From Luteimonas sp. 9C (GTDB lineage Bacteria; Pseudomonadota; Gammaproteobacteria; Xanthomonadales; Xanthomonadaceae): DNA of 64,000 nucleotides. The stretch's first letter is position 1; each line of letters opens with the position of its first letter. The notes under the pieces were generated by a model. That model was not told the DNA's origin. It saw nothing but the letters and a program-made list of their open reading frames with translations, and searched no databases. Below, piece by piece: positions 5,221 to 46,033 of the stretch. The translations under genes and the position numbers were made by a program. The stretch spans positions 2,308,089-2,372,088 of the forward strand of contig NZ_LR733312.1 of assembly GCF_902506295.1 (NCBI RefSeq), written 5' to 3'.

Positions 5221-6120
5221 TCACTCGCGCATCGCGGCCTCGTCGACATGCCGGCGCGCGGTGGCGCGGCACTCCTCGCGCAGAGCCGCCACGAGTCGAC
5301 TGCGCACGCTGGCATTCGACCAGACGATGCCGATGCGGCGCGGCTCTGCCGGCTCGGGCAACGGGATGCGTGCAAGCCGCACGCCTGCCGGCCAGGGCTG
5401 CGCCCAGTCGGGTACCAGTGACACGCCGAGCCCGCGATCGACCATGACCGCGATCGCGTTGAGCGCGTTGAGCTCGAAGCGCTCGCGCGGCGCGATGCCG
5501 ACGCGGCGCAGGTAGTCGTCGGCCTGGCGGCCGCCCCACTGGTGACGGTCGTAGCGGATCAGCGGTTCGCTGGCGAGCAGTTCGTGCGGATCGCGATGCG
5601 CCATGTGCTGCGGTGCCAGGACCACCAGCGGCTCTTCGCGCAGCACCTCCCAGTTGCAGGTCTTGGGCAGGGCGAACGGCGCCTGCAGCACGATCGCCGC
5701 ATCGAGATTGCCCTGCTCCACTTCGGTGTAGAGCTCGGCCGAATAACCGGGTTTGATGAAGACGTTGATCTGCGGCAGCGTGGTGACCATGCGCGCGAGC
5801 ACATCGGGCAGCATGCCCGCCAGCGCCGTCGGACACGCGCCGAGCCGCAGTTCGCCGGCGACCGCGCGATCGTTGGCGACGCTGCGCAGGTCCGAGACGT
5901 CGCGCAGCAGATCGCGGGTGCGCTGCAGGATGCGGGCGCCCTCTTCGGTCACGCAGACGGTGCGCCCGGCGCGCGCGATCAACGCGACGCCGAGTTCGCG
6001 CTCCAGGGTGCGGATCTGCTGGGCCACCGCTGCCGGGGTGATGTTGAGAAAGCGTGCCGCGGCGGCCATCGAGCCCCGGTCGACGACGTTGACGAAGGTG
6101 TAGAGGAACTGGGTGTCCAA
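5221..6120 (-). CDS. LysR-family transcriptional regulator
   Basis: DNA-binding regulator of 299 aa. Residues 1-60 form the winged helix-turn-helix (FLYTFVNVVDRGSMAAAARF then ITPAAVAQQIRTLERELG), and about 90-290 form the periplasmic-binding-protein-like effector domain. I place the start at a TTG at 6120 because GGAG lies 7 nt upstream and the protein then begins right at the conserved HTH; a longer frame to 6162 would add an unconserved Arg-rich lead. It lies between the symporter gene and the TonB receptor, all on the same strand, so it may control either. The effector is unknown. Confidence 0.9.
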   Translation of the reverse strand: MDTQFLYTFVNVVDRGSMAAAARFLNITPAAVAQQIRTLERELGVALIARAGRTVCVTEEGARILQRTRDLLRDVSDLRSVANDRAVAGELRLGACPTALAGMLPDVLARMVTTLPQINVFIKPGYSAELYTEVEQGNLDAAIVLQAPFALPKTCNWEVLREEPLVVLAPQHMAHRDPHELLASEPLIRYDRHQWGGRQADDYLRRVGIAPRERFELNALNAIAVMVDRGLGVSLVPDWAQPWPAGVRLARIPLPEPAEPRRIGIVWSNASVRSRLVAALREECRATARRHVDEAAMRE

Positions 6121-27835: not shown

Positions 27836-30800
27836 ATGCCCGACGCCGCACCCGACTTCCGTCTCTACCATTCCAATGCACTGGAAGTGCTGGCGGGCCT
27901 GATGGCGCATGCGCTGCGCACGCCGGCGCCGGGGCAGTCGTTGCTGGCGCCGGACGTGGTGCTGATTCCGCAGGTCGCGATGCGGCGCTGGCTGCAGGCC
28001 GCGCTCGCCGCGGAACACGGCGTCGCCGCGAATCTGGAGTTCGTGACGCCCGGCGAATTCGTCGGCAAGGCGCTGTCGGCGAATCTCGGTCCACCGACCG
28101 ACGAACCCGACGCCGCCGCGCTGCGCTGGCATCTGTATGCCGCGCTGATCGATCCGGCCTTCCTCGCCCAGCCCGCGCTGGCCGCGTTGCGCGCGCATGT
28201 CGACAGCGTCGATCCGCTGCGGCCATGGGCGCTGGCCGGCGAGCTCGCCTCGGTGTTCGAGAAGTATCAGGCCTGGCGCCGCGACTGGCTGCTGCGTTGG
28301 GAAGCGGGCGCGGATGCCGACGATCCGCAGGCGATCCTGTGGCGGCGCATCGCGCGCGGTCGCCAGCATCGCGCGCGGCGCATCCAGCAATATCTCGACC
28401 GCTTCGAAAGCGCCGACGCCCCGCTGCCCGTCGGCCTGCCGCCACGGCTGTTCGCGTTCGCCACGCTCAACGTTTCGCCCGACGTGCTGCGCGTGCTGGC
28501 CACGCAGGCGCGCGTCGGCACGCTGCATTTCTATGTGCCCTCGCCGAGTCGCGATTACTGGGGCGATCTGCAGCGCGTGCGCGCCGGTGGCGCCGAGGCC
28601 GCGCGTACCGAGAATCCATTGCTGCAGGCCTGGGGCCACGCCGGTCGCGATTTCATGGCCGTGCTCGGCAGCTACGAAGTCGTACATCCGGATGTCGAAC
28701 TGCGCAGCGATGCCGATCCCGGTGAAGGCGGCGGCGAACTGCACGGCAGCCTGCTGCGGCGCCTGCAGTCGGATCTGTTCCAGCGGCTGCCGTCACCGCC
28801 GCTGACGCCGGCCGCCGACGATCCGCGCACGCGTTTGCCCGCCTTGCGACGCGACGATCCCAGCCTGCAGGTCCACGCCTGCCACACGCGCCTGCGCGAA
28901 CTGCAGGTGCTGCACGACCAGCTGCGCGCCTTGTTCGAGGATCCGCGTTTCGATCCGCCGCTGCAGCCGCGCGACATCGCGGTGCTGGCGCCCGACATCG
29001 ATCCCTACATCCCGTATCTGGATGCGGTGTTCGGCGGTCGCGGTAGAGAAGACTCGATTCCGTATGCGTTGGCCGATGCCAGCCCGCTCGCCGGCGAACC
29101 GCTGGCCGATGTCTTCCTGCGCCTGCTGGCGCTGCCGGTCGCACGTTTCGGACTGGAGGAAACGCTGGACCTGCTGGCGAGTCCGCCGCTGGCCGAATCC
29201 GCCGGGCTCGATGCCGGTGCGTTCGCGCGGTTGCATGCCTGGCTGTTCGCGGCCGGTGCGCGCTGGGGCATCGACGCTGCGCATCGCGCGCGCCTCGATG
29301 CGCCGGCCGATGACGCCTACACCTGGGCGTTCGCGCTCGACCGTCTGCTGCTCGGCCACGCCAGCGGCAGCGATGCACCGATCGCGACGGCATCAGGCCA
29401 GCTCATCGCTCCCTTGCCCGAACTCGAAGGCAGCGCGCTCGATGCGCTCGACACGCTGGTCCGCCTGCTGCGCGTGCTCGCACGTCATGCCGACCTGCTC
29501 GGCGAGGCGATGCCGCCCGAGGCCTGGCGCGATCGCCTGCTGCGCCTGCTCGACGCGCTGCTGCCGAAGCCGCCGTCTGCGCCCGCCACCCAGCGCGCAC
29601 TCGATCGCCTGCGCAGCCTGATCGACGCCTTCGCCGCCGACGCCACGCGCGCCGGCTTCGATGCACCGGTGCCATCGGAGGCCGTGCGTGCGCATTTCGC
29701 CGCCGTGCTCGGCGAAGCGGATACGCGCGCGCCACTGCTGACCGGCGGCGTCAGCGTCGGTCGCATGGTGCCGATGCGCCTGCTGCCGTTCCGTGCGATC
29801 TGCCTGCTCGGCATGGACGACGGCGACTTCCCGCGTCGCGATTCCGCGGCAGGGCTCAATCGCCTGACCGCCGAACTCGGCACCGATCGCCGCCAGGTCG
29901 GCGACCGCAGCACGCGCGACGACGACCGCTTCCTGTTCCTGCAGCTGTTCGCCGCCGCGCAGGACGTGTTCTACGTCAGCTACCAGGGCGCGGACCCGCG
30001 CGACGGCAGCGTGCGCGAGCCCTCGGTGCTGGTGACCGAACTGCTGGCCGCCGCCGATGCACAGCACGCGCCGGACGCGCATGCGGCGGACGACCTCGTC
30101 GTGCATCACCCGCTGCAGCCGTTCGCGCCCGCCGCATTCGGCGCCGGTGACGAGCCGCGCCGGTTCTCGTACCGCCAGCAGTGGTGGCAGGCCGCGTCGC
30201 AGCCCGCGCAGCGTCGTGTCGCGCTGCCGGCGTGGTTCGACGGCACGCCGCTGCCGCCGATCGAAGAAGCGGACGATGCGCTGTCGCTCGATGCGCTGCG
30301 GCGCTTCCTGCAGGCACCGGCGGAGACCTTCCTGCGCCAGCGGCTCGGCATGCGGCTGGCCGAGGTCGACACGCTCGAAGGCGACGTCGAACCGTTGCTC
30401 GCGCCTGGCCGCGGCCTCGCGAAACAACAGCTGCAGCGCGCGGTGTTCGAAGCGCGACTGCGCGGCGACGACGATGCGACCACGCAGGCTCTGCTGCGCG
30501 CACGCGGGCTGTTGCCGTCGGGGCCACTGGGGCGTCGCACGCTCGATGCGGCGCGACGCGAGGTCGACGGTTACGCCGAGGCGTTCCGTGCCTGGCGTGG
30601 TGATGCGGTGGCCGAATCCCCTCGCATCGAGGCCGAGATCGACGGTGTGCGCCTGCACGGGCGGCTCGGCGACGTGTATCCGCACGGCATCGCGCGCATC
30701 CGCTTCGATGCGCCGAACGGGAATTCCGCGATCCGCGACGGCCTCGACTGGCTGCTCGCCAGCGCGGCCGGACGCGACACACCGCTGGTGCAGTTCCATG

Positions 30801-31216
30801 ACGGCGGCGATGCGGGCGTTGGTCCGCACACACGCGCCACGCTCGCACCGCACGAGGCCCGCGCCCTGCTCGCGCAGCTGATGGCCCTGCGCGCCCAGGG
30901 CCTGCGCGCGCCACTGCCGTTCGCACCCTACAGCGGCTGGGAACTGTTCAACGCGCCGACACTCGAACGCGGTCTTTCGAGCGCGGCGAAGAAGTGGCAC
31001 GGCAGCGACCGCAGCTGGGGCGAAGGCAATACCGAAGCGCTGCGCCTCGCGCTGCGCGGACGCGATCCGTTTACCGACGAGGCCACGCAGGTCGCGTTCG
31101 TCGATCAGGCACTGACGGTCTTCAGCGCGGTCGTCTCCGGCATGGTCTACGGCGGCACCGATCTCGACGCGCTGCGCGCGATCGCCGCGGCACTCGACGT
31201 GGAGGACTCGGAATGA
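27836..31216 (+). CDS. recC: RecC subunit of exonuclease V
   Basis: 1126-aa gamma chain of RecBCD, the helicase-nuclease that processes double-strand DNA ends and recognises Chi. It begins with FRLYHSNALEVLAGLMAH, the RecC N-terminal signature. Later landmarks are VLAPDIDPYIPYLDAVFG, PMRLLPFRAICLLGMDDGDFPRRD and the C-terminal GWELFNAPTLERGL. It overlaps recB by 4 nt. A hairpin region (27767-27790) separates it from the previous gene. Complete in length. Confidence 0.95.
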   Translation: MPDAAPDFRLYHSNALEVLAGLMAHALRTPAPGQSLLAPDVVLIPQVAMRRWLQAALAAEHGVAANLEFVTPGEFVGKALSANLGPPTDEPDAAALRWHLYAALIDPAFLAQPALAALRAHVDSVDPLRPWALAGELASVFEKYQAWRRDWLLRWEAGADADDPQAILWRRIARGRQHRARRIQQYLDRFESADAPLPVGLPPRLFAFATLNVSPDVLRVLATQARVGTLHFYVPSPSRDYWGDLQRVRAGGAEAARTENPLLQAWGHAGRDFMAVLGSYEVVHPDVELRSDADPGEGGGELHGSLLRRLQSDLFQRLPSPPLTPAADDPRTRLPALRRDDPSLQVHACHTRLRELQVLHDQLRALFEDPRFDPPLQPRDIAVLAPDIDPYIPYLDAVFGGRGREDSIPYALADASPLAGEPLADVFLRLLALPVARFGLEETLDLLASPPLAESAGLDAGAFARLHAWLFAAGARWGIDAAHRARLDAPADDAYTWAFALDRLLLGHASGSDAPIATASGQLIAPLPELEGSALDALDTLVRLLRVLARHADLLGEAMPPEAWRDRLLRLLDALLPKPPSAPATQRALDRLRSLIDAFAADATRAGFDAPVPSEAVRAHFAAVLGEADTRAPLLTGGVSVGRMVPMRLLPFRAICLLGMDDGDFPRRDSAAGLNRLTAELGTDRRQVGDRSTRDDDRFLFLQLFAAAQDVFYVSYQGADPRDGSVREPSVLVTELLAAADAQHAPDAHAADDLVVHHPLQPFAPAAFGAGDEPRRFSYRQQWWQAASQPAQRRVALPAWFDGTPLPPIEEADDALSLDALRRFLQAPAETFLRQRLGMRLAEVDTLEGDVEPLLAPGRGLAKQQLQRAVFEARLRGDDDATTQALLRARGLLPSGPLGRRTLDAARREVDGYAEAFRAWRGDAVAESPRIEAEIDGVRLHGRLGDVYPHGIARIRFDAPNGNSAIRDGLDWLLASAAGRDTPLVQFHDGGDAGVGPHTRATLAPHEARALLAQLMALRAQGLRAPLPFAPYSGWELFNAPTLERGLSSAAKKWHGSDRSWGEGNTEALRLALRGRDPFTDEATQVAFVDQALTVFSAVVSGMVYGGTDLDALRAIAAALDVEDSE

Positions 31217-34200
31217 CCGGCACCGATCCCTACCTGCTGCTGCCGCTCGACGGCGTGCGCGCCATCGAGGCCTCGGCCGGTACCGGCAAGACGTTCACGC
31301 TGGCGACGCTGGTCGTGCGCCTCGTCGTCGAAGGCGGTCTGCGCGTCGGCGAAATTCTCGCCGTGACCTTCACCGAGGCCGCGACCCAGGAACTGCGCAG
31401 CCGCATCCACAAACGTCTGAAGATGGCCGAGGCGCTGGTCGAGGTCGACATCGGCGACGACGCCTCGCCCGAGACCGTGCTGACCAGTGCCGTCCTCACC
31501 CAGCATCTCGCGCGCGGCGAGGAAAGCGCCGATGCGCTGCGGCGTCGCCTGCGCGCGGCGGCCGACGAGACCGATCTCGCGGCGATCTTCACCATCCACG
31601 GCTTCTGCGCACGCGCGCTGCGCGAACACGCGCTGGAAGCCGGGCAGGGTTTCGACGCGCCGGAGTTGATGGCCAGCGACACCGCGTTGCGCGAGGCCAT
31701 CGCTGCCGATCTGTGGCGCTCGCACGGCGTCGAACCCGATGCCGCCGACGATCTGCTGAGCCTGTGGTCCGGCGGCCCGATCGCGCTCGCCGGCGATCTG
31801 TCGCCGCTGGTGCGCGAACGCTTATTGCGACCCGCACTGGCCGAACTTCCGGACGATCCCGCGCCGCGTGTGCGCGCTGCCGGTGCCGCGCTCGCGCATG
31901 CCTTCCACGCGCATGGCGACGACTTCCGCGCGTCGCTGATCGCGGCCGTCGACAACAAGATCCTGCATGGCGCCAGCTACAAGGCCGACTGGATCACCGC
32001 GCTGTTCAATGATCTGCGCACCTGGTGCGCAGCCGGCGATCACGACGCGCCCTTCCAGCACGCCAAGCTGCCGCAGCTGCGCCGTGACCGGTTGATCGAG
32101 AAAACCAACAAGACCGCCAAGGGGCCGACGCCGGACTCGCCGGTGTGCGACGCGATTCCCGCGTATCTCGATGCGCTCGACGAGATCGCCGAGTGGCAGG
32201 ACGTGCGCCGCGTCGAACTGCTGCACCGCCTGCGCGACGACGCGCGCGCCCGTGTCGAGCGCTTCAAGCAGCAGCAGCGCGTGCAGACCTACGACGATCT
32301 GATCGACCGCGTCGCCGACGCCGTCGACGGGCCGCAGGCCGACGCGCTGATCGCGCAGCTGCGCGCGCAGTACCGGGTCGCGCTGGTCGACGAATTCCAG
32401 GACACCGATCCACGCCAGTGGCGGATCTTCGAACGTGTGTTCGGCGTCGCCAGTGGCGCACCGGCGCTGTTCGTCATCGGCGATCCCAAGCAGGCGATCT
32501 ACGGCTTCCGCGGTGGCGACGTCGAAACCTATCTCGCCGCGCAGGCCTCGGCCGAGCGCGCGCCGCCGCTCGCGCTGAACTTCCGCTCGCGCCCCGGCGT
32601 ACTGCGCGCGGTGGCGGCGCTGTACGCACAGGCCGATGCGAGCGGCCATCCGCCATTCGTCGACGCCCGCATCGCGTTTCGCGAGGTCGCACCCGGCGGC
32701 GTGCGGCGCGACGACGACTATCTGCGTGGCGGCGTGCCTGCGCCCGCGCTCACGCTGTGGCAGGCGCCCGATCCGCCGCCCGACCACAAGGGCAAGGTCA
32801 AACCCTGGAGCGCCGGCCGCTCGCGCGAACTCGCGACGCAGGCCTGCGTCGCCGAGATCCATCGCGTCCTCACCGAGGCGCGCGCGGGCACGGCGCTGAT
32901 TGAAGGCCGGCCGGTGCAGCCCGGCGACATCGCGGTGCTGGTGCGCTCGCACAGCGAGGCCACGCGCATCCGCGCCGCGCTGGCGATGGTCGGCATTCCG
33001 GCGGTCGCCGCCGGCAAGCAGAGCCTGTTCGCGACCGCGGAAGCGCGCGACGTGCATGCCCTGCTGCTCGCACTGCTGCACGGCGCCGACGACGGCCGTC
33101 TGCGCATGGCGCTGTCGACGGTGCTGATCGGCGAGGACGCGACGCAGGTTGCCGCGCTCGATGCGGACGGCGATGCGCTGCGCGCGTGGCAGCTGGCCGC
33201 GCTCGGCTGGCGCGACCGTCTGCAGCGCGGCGGACCGCTGGCCCTGATCACCGACCTGTGCGCCGCGCACGCGGGCCGTCTGCTCGGCCTGCTCGATGGC
33301 GAGCGTCGCCTGACCAACTACCTGCAGCTCGCCGAACTGCTGCAGGAAGCGCAGGCGCATGCGCTGGGCCTGCATGGTCTGGTCGACTGGCTGTCGCGCG
33401 CGATCGCATCCGCCAGCAGTGACGACGACAGCCAGCTGCTGCGCCTCGAATCCGACGCGCGCCGGGTACAGGTGGTCACGCTGCACAAGAGCAAGGGCCT
33501 GGAATATCCGCTGGTCTTCCTGCCGTTCGCCGGCATCGGCGGCAAGCCGCGCGATGCCGGTCGCCATGTCGCCGTGGCCGACGACGCGGGCCGTGCCCTG
33601 CACTGGAAACTGCTGCCGTCGCGCTCGGGCTGGAACGACGCGAAGCAGCGCTGGCAGGACGGCCAGCGCGCCGAAGACGCGCGCCTGCTCTACGTCGGCC
33701 TGACCCGCGCGCGGCATGCGCTGTGGATCGCCGGCGGCGCGTTGTACGAGTACGGCAAGGCCGCGATCGCGCACATGATCGCCGCCCCCGACGCGCTCGC
33801 CGAGACGCTGGGCACTGCCGTCCGCGTCGACACGCAGCCGTCGCCCGCAGCGCTGCCGTGGCTGCCGCCCGAATCCGAAGAGACCGTGCCGGCCGCGCGC
33901 ATCGCGACGCGCTCGCTGCTGAGCGACTGGTGGGTCTACAGCTTCACCCAGCTGGCGAATGCCGAATCCGGCCACGACGCATCGAGCGCATCCACGCAGG
34001 CCGCGCCCGGTGGTCTGGACGAACCTGCTGTCGATCCCGACGCCGCGCCCGATCCCACGGCTGGCGTCGACGACTACGACCCACGCTTCGCCGGCGCGCG
34101 CTTCGGCGTCGTGCTGCACGACGTGCTGGAACGCAGCGACTTCGCGCAGTGGGCCACGTGGACACCCGGCACGCCCGCGCCCGCCAGCGAGACGCACGTC

Positions 34201-34830
34201 ATCGACGCGCGCCTGCGCGCGGCCGGTTACGCGGATGCCGATCTTGACGACGGCATCGATGTGCTGACGCCACTGGTCGGCCAGACGCTGACCGTCACCC
34301 TGCCCGAAGGCGTGCGCCTCGCCGATGTGCCGTCCGACGCGCGTCGCCCGGAAATCGAATTCCAGTTCGCCCTCGCACCCACGCGCATCGAGGCCCTGCT
34401 CGCGCTGCTGCACGGCCACGACGTGCTGCGTGCCCGCAGCGGCTTCGGCACGCGCCGCCAGCTCGAAGGCCTGATGACCGGCCTGATCGATCTGACCTAC
34501 GCGCACGACGGTCGCTGGTACGTGCTCGACTACAAGACCAACCGTTTGCCTGGCTACGGCCCCGCGCAACTCGACGCCGCGATGGCGCACAGCGAATACG
34601 ACCTGCAGGCGCTGATCTACACCGTCGCGCTGCACCGCTGGCTGCGCTTCCGCCTGGGCGACGGCTACGACTACGCGCGTGACTTCGGTGGCGTGCGGTA
34701 TCTGTTTTGTCGCGGCTTGGATGCCACGCGCGACGATGCGCCGGGCGTGCAGGCGTGGCGGTTCGCGCCGGAACTGGTGGATGCGCTGGATGCGTTGTTT
34801 GCGGGGCGGGATGTGGGGGTGGCGGCGTGA
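31213..34830 (+). CDS. recB: RecB subunit of exonuclease V
   Basis: 1205-aa UvrD-type 3'-5' helicase plus nuclease. Walker A ASAGTGKT lies at 20-27, motif II DEFQDTDP near 392, GDPKQAIYGFRGGD as motif III, and VTLHKSKGLEYPLV as motif V. The C-terminal RecB nuclease has DYKTNRLPGYG near residue 1106. Start ATG 31213 overlaps the recC stop, so the two subunits are translationally coupled. Complete. The recD gene follows only after 526 bp of repeats. Confidence 0.96.
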   Translation: MTGTDPYLLLPLDGVRAIEASAGTGKTFTLATLVVRLVVEGGLRVGEILAVTFTEAATQELRSRIHKRLKMAEALVEVDIGDDASPETVLTSAVLTQHLARGEESADALRRRLRAAADETDLAAIFTIHGFCARALREHALEAGQGFDAPELMASDTALREAIAADLWRSHGVEPDAADDLLSLWSGGPIALAGDLSPLVRERLLRPALAELPDDPAPRVRAAGAALAHAFHAHGDDFRASLIAAVDNKILHGASYKADWITALFNDLRTWCAAGDHDAPFQHAKLPQLRRDRLIEKTNKTAKGPTPDSPVCDAIPAYLDALDEIAEWQDVRRVELLHRLRDDARARVERFKQQQRVQTYDDLIDRVADAVDGPQADALIAQLRAQYRVALVDEFQDTDPRQWRIFERVFGVASGAPALFVIGDPKQAIYGFRGGDVETYLAAQASAERAPPLALNFRSRPGVLRAVAALYAQADASGHPPFVDARIAFREVAPGGVRRDDDYLRGGVPAPALTLWQAPDPPPDHKGKVKPWSAGRSRELATQACVAEIHRVLTEARAGTALIEGRPVQPGDIAVLVRSHSEATRIRAALAMVGIPAVAAGKQSLFATAEARDVHALLLALLHGADDGRLRMALSTVLIGEDATQVAALDADGDALRAWQLAALGWRDRLQRGGPLALITDLCAAHAGRLLGLLDGERRLTNYLQLAELLQEAQAHALGLHGLVDWLSRAIASASSDDDSQLLRLESDARRVQVVTLHKSKGLEYPLVFLPFAGIGGKPRDAGRHVAVADDAGRALHWKLLPSRSGWNDAKQRWQDGQRAEDARLLYVGLTRARHALWIAGGALYEYGKAAIAHMIAAPDALAETLGTAVRVDTQPSPAALPWLPPESEETVPAARIATRSLLSDWWVYSFTQLANAESGHDASSASTQAAPGGLDEPAVDPDAAPDPTAGVDDYDPRFAGARFGVVLHDVLERSDFAQWATWTPGTPAPASETHVIDARLRAAGYADADLDDGIDVLTPLVGQTLTVTLPEGVRLADVPSDARRPEIEFQFALAPTRIEALLALLHGHDVLRARSGFGTRRQLEGLMTGLIDLTYAHDGRWYVLDYKTNRLPGYGPAQLDAAMAHSEYDLQALIYTVALHRWLRFRLGDGYDYARDFGGVRYLFCRGLDATRDDAPGVQAWRFAPELVDALDALFAGRDVGVAA

Positions 34831-35356
34831 ATGCCGGACGCTCAATCTATTTCGAGCACGCGCAGGATCAGAGCTATCCCCCGCACGCGGGGGGTGAGAG
34901 CGATCCGTGTGCGCGGCACTGCCGCGCGGATCGATCGAACGACCGGCGCGCTGCGCCGGGCCGGACGGGTTGGGTGGGGGCAGACCATCAGCGCATGGAA
35001 GCGTTCATCGCGCGACAAACCTTCATGCCTGAGCTCTCTCCATCCGTGACCGGACCCTTCGCCCCCATCCCAACCTTCCCCCGCAGGCGGGGGAAGGCGC
35101 TGTGTTCTCGCTCAATTGAGCTGATCGCGCAGCGCGCTGCGCCGGGCCGGACGGGTTGGGCCGATCAAAGCCCTCCCCCGCTTGCGGGGGAGGGTTGGAT
35201 GGGGGCGAACCGTCAGCGCATGGAAGCGTTCATCGCGCGACCAACCTTCATGCCTGAGCTTTCTCCATCCGCAATCGGACCCTTCGCCCCCATCCCAACC
35301 TCCCTCCGCACGCGGGGGACTGGGCGGTTCGCCGCTATCTGTCCGGCTGTCGCCCC
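34831..35356. repeat. Repeat cluster between recB and recD
   Basis: No gene. A first hairpin copy lies near 34878-34895. A unit starting GCGCTGCGCCGGGCCGGACG occurs at 34946 and again near 35131, and both copies share GCGCATGGAAGCGTTCATCG (34991 and 35215), CTTCATGCCTGAGCT, CCATCC and CGCCCCCATCCCAACC. Hairpins of the CCCCCGC..GCGGGGG family occur near 35078, 35172 and 35310. It is thus an imperfect tandem duplication built from the same REP-like elements seen at 20991, 21102 and 25172. Confidence 0.85.
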
Positions 35357-37297
35357 ATGAGCACCCCCGCCCTCCTCAAAAGTCTCCGCGACGCCGGCGC
35401 CCTGCGCACGCTCGACAACGCGCTCGCGCAGTCGCTGCGTCGGCTCGATCCCGCCACGCCCGACAGCGTGCTCGCCGCCGCCGCGCTGGCATCGCTCGCG
35501 GTCGCCAACGGCCATGCGGGATTCGATCCCGCCGCGCCGCAGCGTCTGGTCGAGGCCGACATCGACTGGCCCGCAGCCGACATCTGGCGCGCCGACCTCG
35601 ATGCCTCGCCGTGGATCTCGCAACCCGACGAGGCCGACGCCGAATCCATCGCCGACACGCCACTGGTCTTCGAACACGGCCTGCTCTACCTGCGTCGCTA
35701 TCGCGAATACGAACGCCAGCTCGCGCTGGGCCTGCGCCGTATCGGCGCGCACAGGCCGAAAGGCGGCGACCTTGACGCACTTGCGCCGCTGTTCGCGCAG
35801 CTGTTTCCCGATGCGCGCACCGGCGACGACCTGCAGGCCCGCGCTGCGGCGGTCGCGCTCCGCCATAACCTGGTCCTCGTGACCGGTGGCCCGGGCACCG
35901 GCAAGACCACGACGATCACCCGTCTGCTGGCCTTGCTCGCCGCGCTGGCGCTGCAGGCCGGACACCCCGCGCCGCGCATCGCGCTGGCCGCGCCGACCGG
36001 CCGCGCCGCCGAGCGCATGGCCGAAAGCGTGCGCAAGGCCGTGCAGGCGCTCGCCGCAGCCGGTGTCGATGCCGCCCTGCTCGAGGTGCTGCCCACCGCC
36101 GGCACCACGCTGCACCGCCTGCTCGGCACGATTCCCGACAGCCCGCGCTTCCGCCACCACGCCGACAATCCGCTGCCGTTCGATGTCGTTGTCGTCGACG
36201 AAGCGTCGATGATCGATCTGCCGCTGATGGCCAAACTGGTCGACGCCGTCGCCGATGGCGCGCGGCTCGTGCTGCTCGGCGATCCCGACCAGTTGCCGTC
36301 GGTCGAGGCCGGCGACGTGCTCAGCGGCATCCTGCGTGCGGCCGGGGATGGCACCGGCATCGCCGATGACGACGACGCTGCATTGCAGGCACTGCTCGGT
36401 GCATCCGGGCATCGCCCCGGCGACGACCGGGAACCGGCGACTGCCGCAACCGATGCGCGCGCATTCCCCGGCCGCCGCATCCACCTGCAACGCGGCTACC
36501 GCCAGAGCGCCGCCCTCGATCTCGCGCCGCTCGCCACGGCCGTGCGCGAAGGTGATGCCGAGACCGCGCTGTCGCTGCTGCGCACCGGTGAACTCGCCGG
36601 CGTGCACTTCCACGAAGGCCAGTCCGACCCCCTCGCCGCGCACCGCGACCAGCTGCTCGCGCACTGGATCGCACTCGCCGACACCCGCGATCCCGCCGAA
36701 GCGCTCGCACGTGCCGGTCGCCTGCGCATCCTCACCGCGGTGCGCGAAGGGCCACAGGGCGCGCGCGGGCTCAATGCGCGCATCGAAGAGCTGCTCGGCG
36801 GCACCACGCGACGCGGCGCCGGGCCGGGGTATTTCCACGGCAGACTGTTGCTGGTGACCGAGAACAGCTACCGCCACCGCCTGTTCAACGGCGACATCGG
36901 CATCTGTCTGGCCGATCACAGCGGTGTCGTGATGGCCTGGTTTCCGGGCGACGACCCACGGCATCCGCGGCCGTTCCACCCCGCCGCGTTGCCGGCGCAC
37001 GACAGCGCGTTCGCGATGACCGTGCACAAGGCGCAGGGCAGCGAATTCGACACCGTGTGGCTGGTGCTGCCGGACCGGTTCAATCGCGTGCTGTCGCGCG
37101 AACTCGTCTACACCGGCATGACCCGCGCGCGCAGCGGCCTGCATGTCGTGACGGGCGCGCCGATCCTGCGCCACGCACTCGCCCGCCATGCAGGCCGCTG
37201 GTCGGGACTGGGCTGGCGGCTGGGCGCACCGGATGCGGTGTCGCCGCCGGCGCCGCGCGCGTCCGATGCACCACCGCACCAGGGCGCGCTGTTCTGA
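35357..37297 (+). CDS. recD: RecD subunit of exonuclease V
   Basis: 646-aa 5'-3' superfamily-1B helicase subunit of RecBCD. Walker A GGPGTGKTTT near residues 177-186, AAPTGRAAERM as motif Ia, VVVDEASMIDLPLM as motif II, GDPDQLPSVEAGDV as motif III, and AMTVHKAQGSEFD as motif V. Complete. It is separated from recB by the repeat cluster, so it may depend partly on its own promoter. The ATG at 35357 has no clear ribosome-binding site. Confidence 0.95.
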   Translation: MSTPALLKSLRDAGALRTLDNALAQSLRRLDPATPDSVLAAAALASLAVANGHAGFDPAAPQRLVEADIDWPAADIWRADLDASPWISQPDEADAESIADTPLVFEHGLLYLRRYREYERQLALGLRRIGAHRPKGGDLDALAPLFAQLFPDARTGDDLQARAAAVALRHNLVLVTGGPGTGKTTTITRLLALLAALALQAGHPAPRIALAAPTGRAAERMAESVRKAVQALAAAGVDAALLEVLPTAGTTLHRLLGTIPDSPRFRHHADNPLPFDVVVVDEASMIDLPLMAKLVDAVADGARLVLLGDPDQLPSVEAGDVLSGILRAAGDGTGIADDDDAALQALLGASGHRPGDDREPATAATDARAFPGRRIHLQRGYRQSAALDLAPLATAVREGDAETALSLLRTGELAGVHFHEGQSDPLAAHRDQLLAHWIALADTRDPAEALARAGRLRILTAVREGPQGARGLNARIEELLGGTTRRGAGPGYFHGRLLLVTENSYRHRLFNGDIGICLADHSGVVMAWFPGDDPRHPRPFHPAALPAHDSAFAMTVHKAQGSEFDTVWLVLPDRFNRVLSRELVYTGMTRARSGLHVVTGAPILRHALARHAGRWSGLGWRLGAPDAVSPPAPRASDAPPHQGALF

Positions 37298-40685: not shown

Positions 40686-41519
40686 ATGGGACGCGGACGT
40701 CGTGGGTTTTTCGACGACTTGATCAAACTGCCGTGGTCGGTCGCACTGGTCGTCGGCGGTATCGGCTATGCCGTCATCCGGCACGGCGTGCCCGCGTTCT
40801 TCGCGCGGCAGGACGGGCCGTTCGCGCAAGGACTGGCGAATGCAAGTGCATCGCTCGCGCCGCTTGCGTGGATGTTCCTTGCCGTCTGCGCGCTCTGTGC
40901 ATTGGCCGCATTCGCCAACGCACGCAAACGGCGCCGCCTGCTCGACACACGCACTGGGCTCGACAGCCTCGCCGCCATCGGCTGGCGCGATTTCGAACGC
41001 CTCGTCGGCGAGGCGTTCCGTCGTCAGGGCTACAGCGTCGAGGAAACCGGCCTGGGCGGCGCCGACGGCGGCATCGATCTGATCCTGCGCAAGGGCGGCC
41101 GAGCCACGCTGGTGCAGTGCAAGCAATGGCGCCGCGAACAGGTACCGGTGAATATCGTGCGCGAGATGTACAGCCTGCTCGCCCACCACGGCGCACACGC
41201 CGTACGCATCGCGACCGTCGGCGGCTTCACCCAGGACGCCGCGCGCTTCGCACACGGCAAGCCGATCGAACTGATCGACGGCGCCACCCTGCTGGCGATG
41301 ATCCGCGGCGTGCAGACCGCTGATCGCGCGCCCGGGTCAACACCGGCGCCGGCGCCCCCACCCCGGATTGAACCCGCTTTCGCCGCCGCCACGCCGGTCA
41401 TTGCAGCGACACCCGACTGCCCACGCTGCGGCAGCGCGATGGTCGAACGCACCAACCGCCGCGCCAACACCATCTTCTGGGGCTGCACCACATTTCCCGC
41501 ATGCCGCGGCACGCGATGA
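40686..41519 (+). CDS. Membrane-anchored Mrr-type restriction endonuclease with zinc finger
   Basis: 277 aa. Two membrane segments at about 14-30 and 56-77. The Mrr/PD-(D/E)xK nuclease domain at about 95-200 has GYSVEETGLGGADGGIDLIL and LVQCKQW (Asp and QxK of the active site). The C-terminal topoisomerase-type zinc finger has CPRCGSAMV and GCTTFPACRGTR. AAGGGGG precedes the ATG. It may cleave foreign or modified DNA, or act in DNA repair at the membrane. The codon usage is GC-rich like the host, so it lies outside the AT-rich island that follows. Confidence 0.87.
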   Translation: MGRGRRGFFDDLIKLPWSVALVVGGIGYAVIRHGVPAFFARQDGPFAQGLANASASLAPLAWMFLAVCALCALAAFANARKRRRLLDTRTGLDSLAAIGWRDFERLVGEAFRRQGYSVEETGLGGADGGIDLILRKGGRATLVQCKQWRREQVPVNIVREMYSLLAHHGAHAVRIATVGGFTQDAARFAHGKPIELIDGATLLAMIRGVQTADRAPGSTPAPAPPPRIEPAFAAATPVIAATPDCPRCGSAMVERTNRRANTIFWGCTTFPACRGTR

Positions 41520-41574
41520 GCTTTACCCGCGGTGATAGCTGTCTCCCTCCGCCACCCACCAGGCAGAACCCGCC

Positions 41575-41868
41575 ATGCGCTATCTGATCGTGCTGCTGCT
41601 CATCGCCGCCGCGTGGGGCGGCTATCGCCACCTCCATGCACCGGAACCTGTGGCGATCACACCGATCGCCGCGACCGCCACGCCATCACGCGCCGCCGCG
41701 ACGCGCGTATTGCCGGCGCCAACCCAGCGCTTCAGCTGCGACGGACGCCAGCACTGCGCGCAGATGCGGTCATGCGAGGAAGCGACGTTCTTTAGCCGCA
41801 ATTGCCCGGACACGAAGATGGATGGGGATGAAGACGGGGTGCCGTGCGAGACGCAGTGGTGTGGTTAG
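41575..41868 (+). CDS. Excalibur calcium-binding-domain protein
   Basis: 97 aa. A single N-terminal membrane or signal segment MRYLIVLLLIAAAWGGYRHL, a Pro/Ala linker, then the Excalibur domain: FSCDGRQHCAQMRSC, the calcium-loop DGDEDGVPCE and a final CETQWC. Extracytoplasmic. Such domains are often near surface nucleases; here it follows an Mrr nuclease by 55 bp. It is the last GC-rich gene before the AT-rich island. Confidence 0.85.
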   Translation: MRYLIVLLLIAAAWGGYRHLHAPEPVAITPIAATATPSRAAATRVLPAPTQRFSCDGRQHCAQMRSCEEATFFSRNCPDTKMDGDEDGVPCETQWCG

Positions 41869-42144
41869 AAAAGAGCATGGCACCGTTCGCTCCCGTTCGC
41901 TGCAATGCAACATTCCGGTGCGAAGCAGACGATTGCGGCGTCTCGATCAAACTGAGGGCGGCGGTGATGGCGTTTGAAGATTTGCCGAAGTGAATCTGCC
42001 ACCGTTGACTGGTATTTGGGCCTGGATAGGAGAATTGAAGAATATGAAAATGCAATTGCACTCTGCCTCACTACGAGATAGCATCGCAACGCCTGGGCGA
42101 ATCGCTCAGCCATCGCGGTCAGTAATTTTCAAGTCGCAAGCATT

Positions 42145-42174
42145 GCCCGAAAGGGCGCCAGCATTTGCTGGCAT
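42145..42174 (+). ncRNA. Two adjacent hairpins upstream of the retron RT
   Basis: GCCC-GAAA-GGGC followed directly by GCCAGCA-TT-TGCTGGC. Both are short, perfect stems in the 467-bp non-coding stretch before the reverse transcriptase. They could belong to a longer msr-msd transcript or its leader. Confidence 0.4.
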
Positions 42175-42231
42175 TGGGGACCAGATTTACCTTCCCCCCG
42201 CGTCCGCAAAAGATGGAGCGTGGTGTAACAA

Positions 42232-42327
42232 CAAGCCTAGCCAGGCGATGAGAGGCAGCAGTTCGCGACTTGCTGGCCCAAGATGGACCTCATCGCTAAG
42301 CCCTATAGCATGGGTTGGCTAGGCTTG
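42232..42327 (+). ncRNA. Candidate retron non-coding RNA (msr-msd) closed by a1/a2 repeats
   Basis: CAAGCCTAGCCA (42232-42243) pairs perfectly with TGGCTAGGCTTG (42316-42327), which ends 8 nt before the reverse transcriptase ATG. Inside are a long stem GCGATGAG (42245) / CTCATCGC (42289), a nested CAGCA / TGCTG stem, and a weak CCC / GGG stem near the 3' side. The CCTA-GC context at the left arm resembles the a1 end and branching G of known retrons. At about 96 nt it is shorter than typical msr-msd regions, so the exact borders are uncertain. Confidence 0.5.
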
Positions 42328-42335
42328 GATTCACC

Positions 42336-43538
42336 ATGAAATCGAAGCCTTACAGCTCCATGCGCGGCTCTAACGGTCCTATTAGGAACCTGGATCACCT
42401 GTGCACCATCCTCGATGTCGAGAGGCGTGTGCTCGATCGAGTTCTTGCGATGCCGGGCAGCCAACGCTATGCGCTTGCTCGCAGTCGTGCGGCCAAGTCA
42501 GACGGATCGGCGCGGGAAGTCTTTAATCCTTGCCGCGAGGTTCGGCGAATTCAACTCAAGATTGTAAAGCGAATTCTAAAAGTGCCCGGCGCCGTACGAT
42601 GGCATGACTTTCTTTACGGCTCCATGCCTAATCAGATTGACGCCCATGGGAATGAGTTAAAAAAAGACTACGTGACCTGTGCCGCTCAACACTGCGACGC
42701 CAGAAGCGTTTTGAAGATAGATATTAAAGATTTTTTCGGAAATATTCATTCCGACACTATCATGCGCATCTGGACCGAGCTTTTTGGCTATCCAGGCGAT
42801 GTAGCCTTTGTGCTTACAAATCTCTGCCTTAAAGACGACAACCTGCCGCAGGGCGGGATAACGTCTAGCTATCTAGCCATGCTTTGTTTATTCGATTTAG
42901 AAGCGAAGACTGTCGCGACCCTGCGCCTAAAGGGACTTCGCTATACCCGTTATGTAGATGATATTACAATCTCATCGCCGTTAAGCAATTATGACTTCGA
43001 ACTTGCTTTAGCTCTCGTCCGGGCAATGCTGATTTCTAGAGCCTTGCCAATAAATGAGAGCAAAGTAAAGCGAGTTTCTTTGAGCACAGAAGCGATTACG
43101 GTCCATGGACTTAGAGTCAACTTCGAAACTCCCAGATTACCGGCTGCAGAGGTCGGCAGAATTCGAGCCTCAGTGAAGACCATCGAGCTTCTTGCGGCAG
43201 ATACCTCATTTTCGTCTACGCCCGGCTTTAGAAAAAGCTTTAATAAGTGCATGGGTCGCGTAAATAAACTAAAAAGAGTCGGTCATTCGCAGCACAGCAA
43301 GCTCCTGAAAAGACTCCAAGCAGTTCGCCCGCTTCCTTCTCGCCGAGACATTAAGAAAGCCGTGGCTTCAATCCGAACTCTGAGCGCAGAATTTCATAGT
43401 CGCGGAAATACGTTTGGCTATAGAAAAAGATACTACATTTTGATGGAAAGGCTAAATTTGATTGCCCGTAGCCACAAAGAGCTTGCGGCCATGCTGCGCG
43501 CCCATGTCAAAAGGATTAAGCCCTCTTATGTTGACTAA
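42336..43538 (+). CDS. Retron-type reverse transcriptase
   Basis: 400-aa RNA-directed DNA polymerase. RT motifs in order: VLKIDIKDFFGNIHSD (about 126-140), NLPQGGITSSYLA (169-181), and the catalytic YVDD at 206-209. Just before the first Asp motif, CAAQH (115-119) occupies the place of the retron X motif NAxxH, and VHGLRVN (256-262) that of the Y motif VTGLVVN, both with single substitutions. The thumb-like C-terminus is basic. The ATG at 42336 is chosen over a TTG at 42315 because the latter would lie in the a2 repeat. AT-rich codon usage marks it as acquired. The following two-membrane-segment gene points to the Ec48-type retron. Confidence 0.85.
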   Translation: MKSKPYSSMRGSNGPIRNLDHLCTILDVERRVLDRVLAMPGSQRYALARSRAAKSDGSAREVFNPCREVRRIQLKIVKRILKVPGAVRWHDFLYGSMPNQIDAHGNELKKDYVTCAAQHCDARSVLKIDIKDFFGNIHSDTIMRIWTELFGYPGDVAFVLTNLCLKDDNLPQGGITSSYLAMLCLFDLEAKTVATLRLKGLRYTRYVDDITISSPLSNYDFELALALVRAMLISRALPINESKVKRVSLSTEAITVHGLRVNFETPRLPAAEVGRIRASVKTIELLAADTSFSSTPGFRKSFNKCMGRVNKLKRVGHSQHSKLLKRLQAVRPLPSRRDIKKAVASIRTLSAEFHSRGNTFGYRKRYYILMERLNLIARSHKELAAMLRAHVKRIKPSYVD

Positions 43539-44274
43539 AGCTGCCAAAGGCCTCACTAAGAAATTTACAACAAATATGTTTCTTTGGTCGTTGGTCGTGG
43601 CCCTTGCGATATGCGGCACCCTCGGAATTATCATCTCACTAGCATCGTGGTACGTGACGAAAAGCGAACTTCCAGTTCGAATTGAACTCTGCCTGCATTC
43701 GGGCTGCATCGCCTATGCAAAGAAGATATTCCTCGGCCCGTTGTCGCTACTGAATATAACTGCACAAGCAATGGTGGTCATCGCGACTGTCGGCGGAATA
43801 ATTGTTGCGTTGTTTAGCTTTTTCCACACATCACGAGTGAGCGCGTTTGGTAACCACGTATCCCATATCTCTGTTTTCAGTGCGTATCTTTCTTATGAAA
43901 TCTCCAAACGCGATAAAATTGCTACAGAATCCATCGACATCTATGGGCTCTACTCGTTAATGTTTTCCAAATCCAGGGGCGGCTCAATGGACTTATCAGA
44001 TGAATTCATTGATAAGCTAAACGGCGTCGCAGATATTATTTCCGAGTCAAATTTGATATATCTTTCAACAGGCGGCTCGGTTTTCAACCTAAGAGTCCAC
44101 CAAGCAAAATTGAAGAAGTCCCTCGATTTGCTAGGTATAAAATGTGAGATCACTAGACATCGAATGGATTTTTTAGAGATTGAGGCGCAGATTTTTGACC
44201 TAATAGATTCAATAGTCGTTGTTTTCTGCTCCGATAAAAGGGTTTCTCGACTACCCTCCAGACGTTATGTTTAG
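43528..44274 (+). CDS. Two-transmembrane retron effector (Ec48-type)
   Basis: 248 aa. TM1 at about 17-43, a short extracytoplasmic loop with two cysteines (ELCLHSGC), TM2 at about 73-99, then a 150-residue cytoplasmic domain rich in Lys and Ser. It overlaps the RT stop by 11 nt and shares its low-GC codon usage. In Ec48-type retrons the 2TM protein is the toxic effector that damages the inner membrane when the retron is triggered. Assignment rests on topology and on the RT pairing. Confidence 0.78.
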   Translation: MLTKAAKGLTKKFTTNMFLWSLVVALAICGTLGIIISLASWYVTKSELPVRIELCLHSGCIAYAKKIFLGPLSLLNITAQAMVVIATVGGIIVALFSFFHTSRVSAFGNHVSHISVFSAYLSYEISKRDKIATESIDIYGLYSLMFSKSRGGSMDLSDEFIDKLNGVADIISESNLIYLSTGGSVFNLRVHQAKLKKSLDLLGIKCEITRHRMDFLEIEAQIFDLIDSIVVVFCSDKRVSRLPSRRYV

Positions 44275-44345
44275 CAACTTCCGGCACCGAGTTAAGAACG
44301 AAGCTAGAATTGCGAATTACGGTTTATTTCTAGTGAATAAATTAG

Positions 44346-45281
44346 ATGCCAGACACGCCTCCCCCTTATCTCTATAAGTTTCGATCGTTTAATCCACACT
44401 TGATAGCCGAGCTTTGCAATAGCGAGATTTATTTTGCAAGTCCAATTACGCTCAATGACCCGCTTGATTCAAAGCCGAGCATCATCTTAGACCTCCCATT
44501 GGAGCGACTAGAGGAACTTTTTTGTCGAACTATGGAGGAGTCTCCTAAGAGCGGGGACCCAGCTCGCGAACTAGCTATTTGCCGCTATAACGCCACCGAA
44601 GGAACTTCTGATGCGCTGGCTATCCAACAAAGATACAAGCTATCTGTAGAGCTAAAGATTCATCAGATGCTGCTTAATTGGATTGGGTCTACCGGCGTAT
44701 TGAGCCTAGCCTCTAACTGGGACTGCCCTCTCATGTGGAGCCATTATGGCGCTCAACACACAGGTGTCTGTCTCGAATACTCGACTCGAGATCATGTAGC
44801 GAAAAACTTGCTGATGGTTAGATATGACGCGCCTAGGTCAGTCAGTCTTCAAGATCTTTACGACTGGAAATTGAAAGGCGATTTCGCTGCACGAAAACGC
44901 GTGTTGGAGACATCATTCTTAGCGAAAGCTCCAGCTTGGTCTTATGAAGAAGAATGGAGATGTCTAGCGAGGTCAAGTGGGCCGCATTCAGTCCCTTTCG
45001 ATCTCGCTGCGATTTATTTCGGTGAGCGCTGTAATTCGAGCGTTCGGACTGCGATCGTCAAGACAATGCACGACAGATCCAAACCACTACATTTCTATGA
45101 TGTCTCGTTCAGCCAGGACAACTTCGCCCTTCGGCGCGACGAAGTAGATTTAGAAGAGGTACTGCAAGTCGGACTGCGACCTTCCCCAGCACTTTTGTTC
45201 GGAAGAGTTCCGCTCTCTGACGAATGGGCATCGAAGATTCCTATTCCGCCGGAACAAGAATCAGATCCAAAACTCTACTGA
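44346..45281 (+). CDS. DUF2971-domain protein in the defence island
   Basis: 311 aa. DUF2971 landmarks: PYLYKFRSF at the N-terminus, IYFASPITLNDPLD, the core MWSHYGAQHTGVCLEYS, and WSYEEEWRCLAR. Function unproven; the family is often found in mobile or defence regions. It starts 71 bp after the 2TM gene on the same strand with the same AT-rich codon usage, so it was probably acquired with the retron, either as a third component or as an independent cargo gene. Confidence 0.85.
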   Translation: MPDTPPPYLYKFRSFNPHLIAELCNSEIYFASPITLNDPLDSKPSIILDLPLERLEELFCRTMEESPKSGDPARELAICRYNATEGTSDALAIQQRYKLSVELKIHQMLLNWIGSTGVLSLASNWDCPLMWSHYGAQHTGVCLEYSTRDHVAKNLLMVRYDAPRSVSLQDLYDWKLKGDFAARKRVLETSFLAKAPAWSYEEEWRCLARSSGPHSVPFDLAAIYFGERCNSSVRTAIVKTMHDRSKPLHFYDVSFSQDNFALRRDEVDLEEVLQVGLRPSPALLFGRVPLSDEWASKIPIPPEQESDPKLY

Positions 45282-45312
45282 GATGGATAAAAGGCGCGAA
45301 TAACGGAATAAC

Positions 45313-45331
45313 GGGGTCAGGTTCACTTACC
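45313..45331 (+). repeat. Short interspersed repeat, copy 1
   Basis: GGGGTCAGGTTCACTTACC. Variants follow at 45545-45563, 45602-45619 and 46642-46660. It marks the right edge of the AT-rich island. The stretch 45282-45658 holds these repeats and one gene remnant, and no intact gene. Confidence 0.8.
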
Positions 45332-45347
45332 CGCACGGACGGCGCGC

Positions 45348-45446
45348 CTGGCATTCGGCCTCGGCTTGGGCGAGCTCTATGAGCTTGACTCGCGCTCGTG
45401 GTCCGACTTGCGCAGCGACCGCGCTTCCTTGATCACTTCCTGCAGT
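45348..45446 (-). pseudogene. Remnant of the 3' part of the gene at 46685
   Basis: This stretch is an imperfect copy of 46685-46783: ATTCGGCCTCGG, then GAGCTTGA, TTGCGCAGCGA and CTTCCTTGATCACTTCCTGC occur in the same order. The copy has lost its reading frame. With the flanking GGGGTCAGGTT repeat, 45311-45446 duplicates 46640-46783. Confidence 0.7.
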
Positions 45447-45544
45447 GAACAGCGCTAGGTTCACATAAAGCAGCGTGCCTGGTGTGCTCGCTTGGCGTAC
45501 TGACGAGGCTTGCAGTGGACCTCGTCCTCTTCCATTACGATAAC

Positions 45545-45563
45545 GGTGCCAGGTTCACTTACC
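45545..45563 (+). repeat. Short interspersed repeat, copy 2
   Basis: GGTGCCAGGTTCACTTACC, two mismatches from copy 1. Confidence 0.65.
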
Positions 45564-45601
45564 GCGCGGCATGCGCCTCAGCGCGCCGGCGAACAACTAT
45601 C

Positions 45602-45619
45602 GGTGTCAGGTTCGCTTCC
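45602..45619 (+). repeat. Short interspersed repeat, copy 3
   Basis: GGTGTCAGGTTCGCTTCC, a more diverged copy 40 bp before the next gene. Confidence 0.6.
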
Positions 45620-45658
45620 GGCGTAGCCTTCGAGGGCCCCGCCCGACATGGAGGTCGA

Positions 45659-46033
45659 ATGCGTCATCTGTGCTTACTGATCGGGCTTTTCGCGCCCACG
45701 CTGGTATGTGCGCAGTCCGGCCGCTACGGCGATGTCAGCTATAGCCAGCCACACGACTGCAGCGTCATCACCCGCGATCAGCGCGCCAATCCTTACGCGC
45801 ATCTGTTCCGCACCATGTGCGAGCAGAGCGATGCGCCGACGAAGCAGAGCGTGGCACGGATCATGGGTCGCCCGCAGCCGTCGACCCGCGTATTGACGGT
45901 GCCGGCGCATGGCACCGATGACGCAAAGCGTTACGGTGTCGCGTGCATGGGTGGTCTGGTGATGCTGCGACTGCCGAACGGCTGGCAGCAGGCGCTCGAT
46001 GCGGAGCATCGCTATCTGACGTGCCGCAGCTGA
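45659..46033 (+). CDS. Small secreted cysteine-containing protein
   Basis: 124-aa precursor; signal peptide MRHLCLLIGLFAPTLVCAQ. The mature domain has four cysteines (HDCSVI, MCEQS, VACMGG, YLTCRS) likely forming two disulfides. GGAGG lies 4 nt before ATG 45659; a longer open frame from 45482 would cross the repeats and is discarded. No known family. It and the next lipoprotein are GC-rich host-type genes lying between the two direct duplications. Confidence 0.72.
   Translation: MRHLCLLIGLFAPTLVCAQSGRYGDVSYSQPHDCSVITRDQRANPYAHLFRTMCEQSDAPTKQSVARIMGRPQPSTRVLTVPAHGTDDAKRYGVACMGGLVMLRLPNGWQQALDAEHRYLTCRS

Follow-up and report, generated by a model that had tools for sequence, protein, structure and literature searches.

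The DNA analysed here, hereafter the window, is a 64,000-nucleotide (nt) stretch of the Luteimonas sp. 9C genome (NZ_LR733312.1, positions 2,308,089 to 2,372,088), numbered from its first letter. Between an Excalibur-domain gene (41575-41868) and position ~45303 lies an island, 41869-45303, with 47.9% GC against 68.6% in the whole window, so the AT-rich island pointed out in a first-pass annotation, made from the sequence alone, was borne out. The island contains a reverse transcriptase (RT) gene, an overlapping gene for a protein with two transmembrane segments (2TM) and a DUF2971 gene. Judged from its sequence, the segment 42090-44274, with a structured RNA, the RT gene and the 2TM effector gene, is a complete type IV (Ec48) retron (Table 1). 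It is a retron of known type and ordinary in itself; its unexpected parts are an RNA plan held in common with most relatives, with a crossing pairing in it, and the linkage to recBCD. The start at 41869 agreed with a break in homology, which stops at 41864-41894, right after the Excalibur stop at 41868, in four of the seven genus mates compared; in the other three it stops earlier, at 41334-41520. The search for attachment sites found no exact direct or inverted repeats of at least 12 nt between 41700-42120 and 45200-45800. The host genome (3.35 Mb, two contigs) gave one RT_IV match.

The RT matched the PADLOC profile RT_IV with 453.5 bits over residues 12-396, the next model being RT_V with 206.7 bits. 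A grouping with group II intron, diversity-generating retroelement (DGR) or Abi RTs, named in the first-pass annotation as the outcome that would speak against a retron, was not observed in a comparison with seven NCBIfam families that included no DGR model: the scores for the group II RT model (44.9 bits, cut-off 300) and AbiA (15.3 bits, cut-off 250), as well as those for Drt2 and Drt3a, were far under the cut-offs. Relatives were collected by protein searches of GTDB contigs, phage records and viral contigs, and 18 loci, the window included, had the RT and the 2TM gene together after the near-copies of Ec48 were removed (L119-L124 and L127, 97.7-100% identical to Ec48 over 2.2 kb). Ec48 was represented by L119 in the 18-row protein alignments and by L072 in the RNA set; L125, whose stretch stops before the effector, L129 and L130, which are not type IV, and L073 were left out. 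The latter comes from an Acinetobacter towneri plasmid; its RT gene does not reach the length of its type IV relatives and is followed by an IS30-family transposase gene, with a carbapenemase gene nearby. All 18 RTs matched RT_IV and all 18 effectors matched retron_Ec48_2TM, and in the tree the 18 RTs formed one group against six other retron-like RTs, with 99/99 support. Within it, the window RT was sister to that of Rudaea (100/98; 49% identical), and L004 and L006 made a separate branch (100/100). The proposal of an Ec48-type retron with a 2TM effector was thus sustained by the suggested search against retron RT clades and the Ec48 family, in which both proteins matched type IV.

The motifs CAAQH, VHGLRVN and YVDD are present in the RT, as had been claimed. 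Region X reads CAxxH in 16 of the 18 type IV RTs (CAKAH in E. coli), the exceptions being SAAKH and AANVH, and region Y has the His in all 18 (VHGLRVD in E. coli Ec48); these variants therefore mark type IV and not a new lineage. In agreement, a 2019 review already lists Eco6/Ec48 as exceptional at the region X Asn and for the Thr-to-His change of region Y (PMC6868368; published work is cited by PMC accession, for the excerpts consulted). The catalytic motif is YVDD in eight rows, LVDD in eight and FVDD in two. All ten rows with LVDD or FVDD come from viral contigs, Ec48 (L119) included, and the eight YVDD rows are the window, six genome-assembly loci and one viral contig (L076). The suggestion that the variant motifs set this retron outside the E. 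coli type did not hold, since the Cys and His also occur in E. coli Ec48, and only YVDD departs from it (LVDD). By sequence identity the window lineage is indeed distant from Ec48 (RT 41% identical), but not on account of those motifs.

The effector matched NCBIfam retron_Ec48_2TM (NF038235) with 170 bits (cut-off 65) and PADLOC 2TM_IV with 193.6 bits. Its gene overlaps the RT gene by 11 nt and its product has a Lys-rich N-terminus and two hydrophobic stretches, at residues ~14-44 and ~67-102, as expected from the overlapping two-transmembrane gene first described. Besides the start, F117, Y142, H191, E219 and Y247 are invariant in 18/18 effectors. Between the hydrophobic stretches, C55 and C60 (window 43690-43707) are conserved in 17 of the 18; if the N-terminus is inside, these two residues would be periplasmic and might be joined by a disulfide. 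A search with the effector against the sequences in PDB returned a single chance-like match (E = 0.045).

Upstream of the RT gene, the RNA 42090-42340 folds with -109.3 kcal/mol (z = -4.8), and 0/200 shuffles were as stable; for 42225-42335, z = -4.7. A structured non-coding region with inverted repeats at its ends had been described here: the structure was upheld by the fold and by covariation, but the inverted repeats bound an internal 96-nt hairpin and not the region. The promoter-like element at 42056-42084 was absent from the consensus-scan list and is weak evidence, and promoter and terminator scans of the locus gave no more matches than shuffles did; the RNA probably starts near 42090. 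A common order was found upstream of type IV RTs, namely E1, ~20 nt, the E2 arm, tandem stem-loops and a long 3' hairpin (E4/E5/E6) abutting the RT start. Most of the 18 loci follow this plan, the exceptions being L076, without clear E4 or E2, and L005, where it is weak. An E1-like hairpin stands at the same place in 16/18 loci by pattern and was set by eye in the other two; tandem stem-loops like those at 42145-42172 were noticed in other loci by eye only. The E4 arms of the window, CAAGCCTAGCCAG on the 5' side and TTGGCTAGGCTTG on the 3' side, form Watson-Crick pairs at 12 of 13 positions, and the E4 helix was better than all 60 shuffles in 13 of the 18 loci. In a swapped-arm control, the own pairing outperformed the swapped ones for both E4 and E5 (p = 5e-5 in either case, the minimum attainable with 20,000 permutations), and it was better than every swapped one in 10/18 loci for E4 and 8/18 for E5. 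In the RNA alignment of the 3' hairpin (17 rows, L076 being left out as it has no clear E4), 22/22 consensus pairs had compensatory changes, and 85.6% of the cells paired against 60.2% in shuffles, 0/500 of which were as high. Sliding the partners by 1-3 columns lowered the paired cells to 32-46%, a comparison in which the consensus structure is favoured because it was derived from the same 17 sequences.

The swapped-arm test over the 18 loci also favoured the pairing of E2 with a downstream element, E2' (p = 5e-5), and the best E2 arm lay 17-23 nt after E1 in 13 of them. We infer that E2/E2' is the a1/a2 pair, with a 48-nt template at 42217-42264. Two stem-loops directly follow a1 in other retrons, and reading E2/E2' as a1/a2 places the tandem stem-loops directly after a1 here too. 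The a2 element was within the E5 loop as first called in 15/18 loci, a count that includes L076, whose helices are at chance level. Since a2 falls inside this loop, E2/E2' crosses E4/E5, and from the sequences the two are a candidate pseudoknot, if formed together, or alternative states, if not. Hence, the covarying architecture is what an upstream msr-msd RNA with a1/a2 would show, and the a1/a2, msr and msd labels are putative assignments within it. The Ec48 RT-DNA was reported as 48 bases, then as three bases shorter in a later study, with an end point depending on RNase H1 (PMC8989520). Rfam release 15 (4227 families) gave no match at the gathering score in the window and none at E up to 5 in 41900-42400; Ec48, searched as a control, had only two chance-like matches, on the other strand. 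We found no paper on a pseudoknot in retron msr/msd RNA in the open-access literature searched.

Table 1. Features of the type IV retron and of the recBCD genes in the window.
Feature	Positions	Strand	Basis or remark
Reverse transcriptase, type IV retron, 400 amino acids	42336-43538	+	ATG at 42336, stop at 43538; profiles and tree
Ec48-family two-transmembrane effector, 248 amino acids	43528-44274	+	Overlaps RT; profiles
Weak promoter-like -10, TAGCAT (42079-42084), with TTGCAC (42056-42061), spacer 17	42079-42092	+	By eye only
E1, conserved 5' stem-loop CUGGGCG-AAU-CGCUCAG	42093-42109	+	Fold; conserved among type IV loci
Putative a1 (E2), CAAGTCGC, pairing with a2	42130-42137	+	Swapped-arm test over 18 loci
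Two tandem stem-loops (42145-42156, 42157-42172), presumed msr stem-loops	42145-42172	+	Fold
Presumed msd template, 48 nt 5' of a2	42217-42264	+	Ec48 length and a2 position
E4 stem (42232-42244/42315-42327) enclosing E5 (42244-42252/42289-42297) and E6 (42300-42315)	42232-42327	+	Fold, covariation
Putative a2 (E2'), GCGACTTG, in E5 apical loop	42265-42272	+	Pairing with a1
recC (outside the retron; presumed guarded complex)	27836-31216	+	TIGR01450, 988.8 bits, cut-off 582.9
recB (presumed guarded complex; exact start uncertain)	31222-34830	+	TIGR00609, 683 bits over 7-1193, just under cut-off 696
recD (presumed guarded complex)	35357-37297	+	TIGR01447, 548.9 bits, cut-off 310

An intact recC-recB-recD set lies on the same strand as the RT gene, 5 kb upstream of it; between recB and recD, 34946-35319 carries repeats as long as 128 bp, in both direct and inverted orientation. 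Seven type IV loci came from genome assemblies and were taken as chromosomal, which is an assumption for L001, L002 and L005, and in four of them (the window, L003, L004 and L006) recBCD was on the same contig within 10 kb; without the window, the count is 3/6. Matches to recB and recC were found in all seven host genomes, above the curated cut-off in 2/7 for recB and 6/7 for recC. Linkage occurs at both operon ends, upstream of recC in L003 and downstream of recD in the other linked loci. In L003 (Oceanobacter), the effector stop is 87 nt before recC, and 81-nt copies of the recC 5' end stand on both sides of the retron (3504-3584 and 5928-6008), 96.3% identical, with three synonymous differences. 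In L006 (Luteimonas suaedae), a decayed 3' part of recD (L146:5597-6384) starts ~40 nt after the effector stop, 6.5 kb from the intact recD. Over 535 nt this piece matches the L105 recD, from the same genus, at 84.9% identity, against 80.1% over 513 nt for its own intact recD; being closer to the former, it may have arrived together with the retron from another source. A displaced rec-gene copy was looked for in L004 and the window, and none was found. Phylogeny and orientation together make at least three separate linked acquisitions likely (the window, L004/L006 and L003). We did not find the recBCD linkage of type IV retrons described in the open-access literature, searched by title and start of abstract, a scope outside of which most subscription papers fall.

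The control set comprised 16 genomes brought in by other RTs, 14 of them non-DRT3 and two DRT3. None of the 14 non-DRT3 loci, with other retron-like RTs, had recC on the same contig (4/7 vs 0/14, Fisher p = 0.006), a count in which linkage is possible for L007, L008, L011 and L012, whose RTs are within ~5 kb of a contig end. In the family of the window, recB and recD were nearby in one of 49 non-type-IV RT loci (L197, its recB 32% identical to the query); these controls were all 48 non-window rows of one listing plus one row of another, and with 11 stretches under 19.8 kb in length and some RTs close to a contig start, a few neighbours may have escaped detection. No DRT3 was among them, and the idea that some were type IV was rejected, the best scoring 184 bits vs 494-622 for type IV RTs. 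Across 395 genomes of the family, three type IV retrons were encountered, the window included, and each was linked to recBCD (3/3 vs 1/49, p = 2e-4; p = 0.002 when collapsed to two events in the family). Without the window, the comparison was 3/6 vs 0/14 (p = 0.018) or vs 1/63 (p = 0.0015). All these tests are post hoc and on small numbers, and the window had prompted the question.

In the two DRT3 controls, from Billgrantia and Halomonas, the DRT3a/DRT3b pairs (L148:4397-7812 and L149:12377-15803) are ~1 kb from the recD 3' end and convergent with it; their hosts are taken to be related. Two further DRT3-like pairs (L206, L207) were not on the recC contig, giving 2/4 linked. Linkage as a peculiarity of type IV retrons was weakened by these pairs beside recD, as well as by the hot spot described below, and was partly revived by a 2026 preprint (PMC13174585), according to which Gam triggers DRT3 and the absence of RecBCD makes it lethal. 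When both kinds were pooled as RecBCD-dependent RT systems, 6/11 were near recBCD vs 1/63 other RTs (p = 2e-5; 4/9 when collapsed, p = 6e-4), a post hoc pooling in which DRT3 was drawn as a control and shifted to the cases after the preprint, and the hypothesis is not independent of the data that gave rise to it. If all four DRT3 pairs are kept among the controls, 3/67 controls are near recBCD.

Our analysis favours, with a probability of about 0.77, a complete type IV retron that would act as an abortive-infection guard monitoring RecBCD and is physically linked to recBCD. This reading is supported by the RT_IV and 2TM_IV matches, the retron_Ec48_2TM score above cut-off, the occurrence of both families in 18/18 loci, the monophyly of the RTs, the RNA covariation, recCBD in the window, the recB and recC matches in all seven hosts, the 4/7 linked loci against 0/14 and 1/49, and the Ec48 literature. 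A single transcript from near 42090 would comprise the structured RNA followed by the coding sequences of RT and effector; the RT would prime on this RNA and copy a short template just 5' of a2 into multicopy single-stranded DNA (msDNA), and the effector would be held in check by the particle of RT, RNA and msDNA. As in Ec48, this particle may monitor RecBCD, and when a phage inhibits this complex, the effector would damage the inner membrane and the infected cell would die. Ec48 is reported to act by abortive infection (PMC10162544), to be activated by Gam or gp5.9 and not to be tolerated in a recB mutant (PMC9836394). Such a guard might be tolerated only with a working, perhaps cognate, RecBCD, and thus be kept, and sometimes moved, with rec sequence; its position 5 kb downstream of recCBD, like the recurrent linkage seen among its relatives, fits this idea.

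Several observations weigh against this reading. In L001, L002 and L005 (Rudaea, Salinicola and Acinetobacter), recB and recC are on other contigs and no rec match was found within ~9 kb of the retron, so that Rudaea, the nearest relative of the window, is among the unlinked loci. The 11 phage or viral records checked, with that of E. coli Ec48 among them, gave no recC. All 16 control genomes contain recC as well, so the mere presence of RecBCD tells little. On the mechanism, the a1/a2 pairing of the window is weak singly (6/60 shuffles and 1/34 swapped pairings were as good), and the Eco6 effector alone was without apparent toxicity in one study (PMC8989520). Finally, in this genus the position following the Excalibur gene is a hot spot for defence genes in general: among the five genus mates compared there, the cargo was a NACHT ATPase (L104), an N6-methylase (L106), a PDC-M28C match (L108), an EcsC gene (L110) and an unmatched 1533-amino-acid protein (L105), and in L105 and L110 recD is directly beside it. 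In Stenotrophomonas maltophilia, RecBCD was counted within a defence island with Wadjet I (PMC11680222). This island and the other cargo in the genus mates suggest that the hot spot explains part of the linkage.

Pressed further, this would make the locus an ordinary type IV retron whose proximity to recBCD only reflects a chromosomal hot spot taking any defence gene, with no functional link, an explanation to which we give a little less than even odds. It draws additional strength from the unlinked Rudaea retron and from the linkage controls, which comprise RTs only and not other defence genes. However, hot-spot insertion does not readily account for the rarity of other RT loci of the family near recBCD (1/49), for linkage at both operon ends, twice with parts of rec genes next to the retron, or for the report that DRT3, the other linked RT system, is also RecBCD-dependent (PMC13174585). 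A different doubt concerns the RNA, in which the 12-bp stem E4 could itself be a1/a2, the msDNA being copied from the stretch just 5' of the E4 3' arm and the upstream pairing having another role. E4 is the strongest inverted repeat by the shuffle test and adjoins the RT gene, as a2 usually does in retrons, but this assignment would leave ~25 nt for the msr (reckoned on Ec48), without the two expected stem-loops, and would leave the conserved upstream hairpin and pairing without function; we regard it as unlikely. The AT-rich foreign DNA and the lack of a good promoter match would also suit a decayed or silent retron; however, both genes are open and full length, the catalytic YVDD is intact, and the invariant effector residues and the RNA 3' hairpin are retained, which makes decay very improbable.

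The variable spot extends from window 41868 to ~45645, after a Mrr-like and Excalibur gene pair, and its cargo differs in the five genomes examined. The DUF2971 gene in the same island (44346-45281) is the PADLOC candidate PDC-S31 (147 bits) and possibly a second defence gene. It was rejected as a part of the retron, the best tblastn match in the 17 other type IV loci having E = 1.3 in fetched stretches with flanks of at most ~4 kb. At the right edge of the island, a 27-bp sequence (45304-45330) is identical in L104, where it follows the cargo, and has partial matches elsewhere in the genus; it looks like a dispersed repeat.

The closest characterised system is Retron-Eco6 (Ec48), from the E. 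coli P2-like prophage pro147 (KR073660), with an RT 41% identical over 99% and an effector of the same NCBIfam family. Both retrons have the RNA plan and the X and Y motifs in common, whereas Ec48 has LVDD and resides in a prophage, the window retron has YVDD and lies in a genome near recBCD, and the effectors are 25% identical. NC_028896 gives the pro147 effector the name retron Ec48 family effector, and this name, together with LVDD, suggests that the pro147 RT is that of Ec48 itself; the 2.2-kb Ec48 locus was found in 56/5426 E. coli genomes. The retron of Rudaea sp. 3F27F6 (L001), its sister in the tree, is closer in sequence (effector 39-40% identical), but recBCD is on another contig of that assembly. 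Those of L. suaedae and Pseudoxanthomonas suwonensis (L004) share the position within 10 kb downstream of recD; unlike in the window, they are convergent with recD, and their RTs, 37-42% identical to the window RT, belong to the separate branch. DRT3 (Drt3a/Drt3b) is likewise RT-based, reportedly lethal without RecBCD and Gam-triggered, and stands beside recD in Billgrantia and Halomonas; it differs in having two RTs, with repetitive double-stranded DNA as the reported product (PMC13174585), and no 2TM effector, and is not a retron. Ec48 has been cited as a retron sensing RecBCD inhibition (PMC12904381), and a RecBCD-sensing retron is cited without its name elsewhere (PMC9122126).

As a broader and more tentative proposal, which we think has somewhat less chance of being right than wrong, RecBCD-dependent RT systems, type IV retrons and DRT3, may be genetically linked to recBCD, so that the guard and the complex it guards stay together as one unit, which occasionally travels with parts of recC or recD. 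In the same proposal, the type IV RNA would form a pseudoknot, with a2 in the loop of a 3' hairpin that adjoins the start of the RT gene; copying of the template would open this hairpin, which may tie the synthesis of msDNA to the translation of the RT. For type IV retrons, which are unmatched in Rfam release 15, the RNA model provides limits of a1/a2 and of the template that can be tested, and the compact prime editor PE6a was developed from the Ec48 RT (PMC10482982). A recBCD-linked type IV retron in another bacterial family offers a native pair for asking if RecBCD guarding extends beyond E. coli. If the linkage is upheld in a full survey, what a defence system guards could be predicted from sequence only, and closeness to recBCD could, if the proposal is true, serve to find further RecBCD guards.

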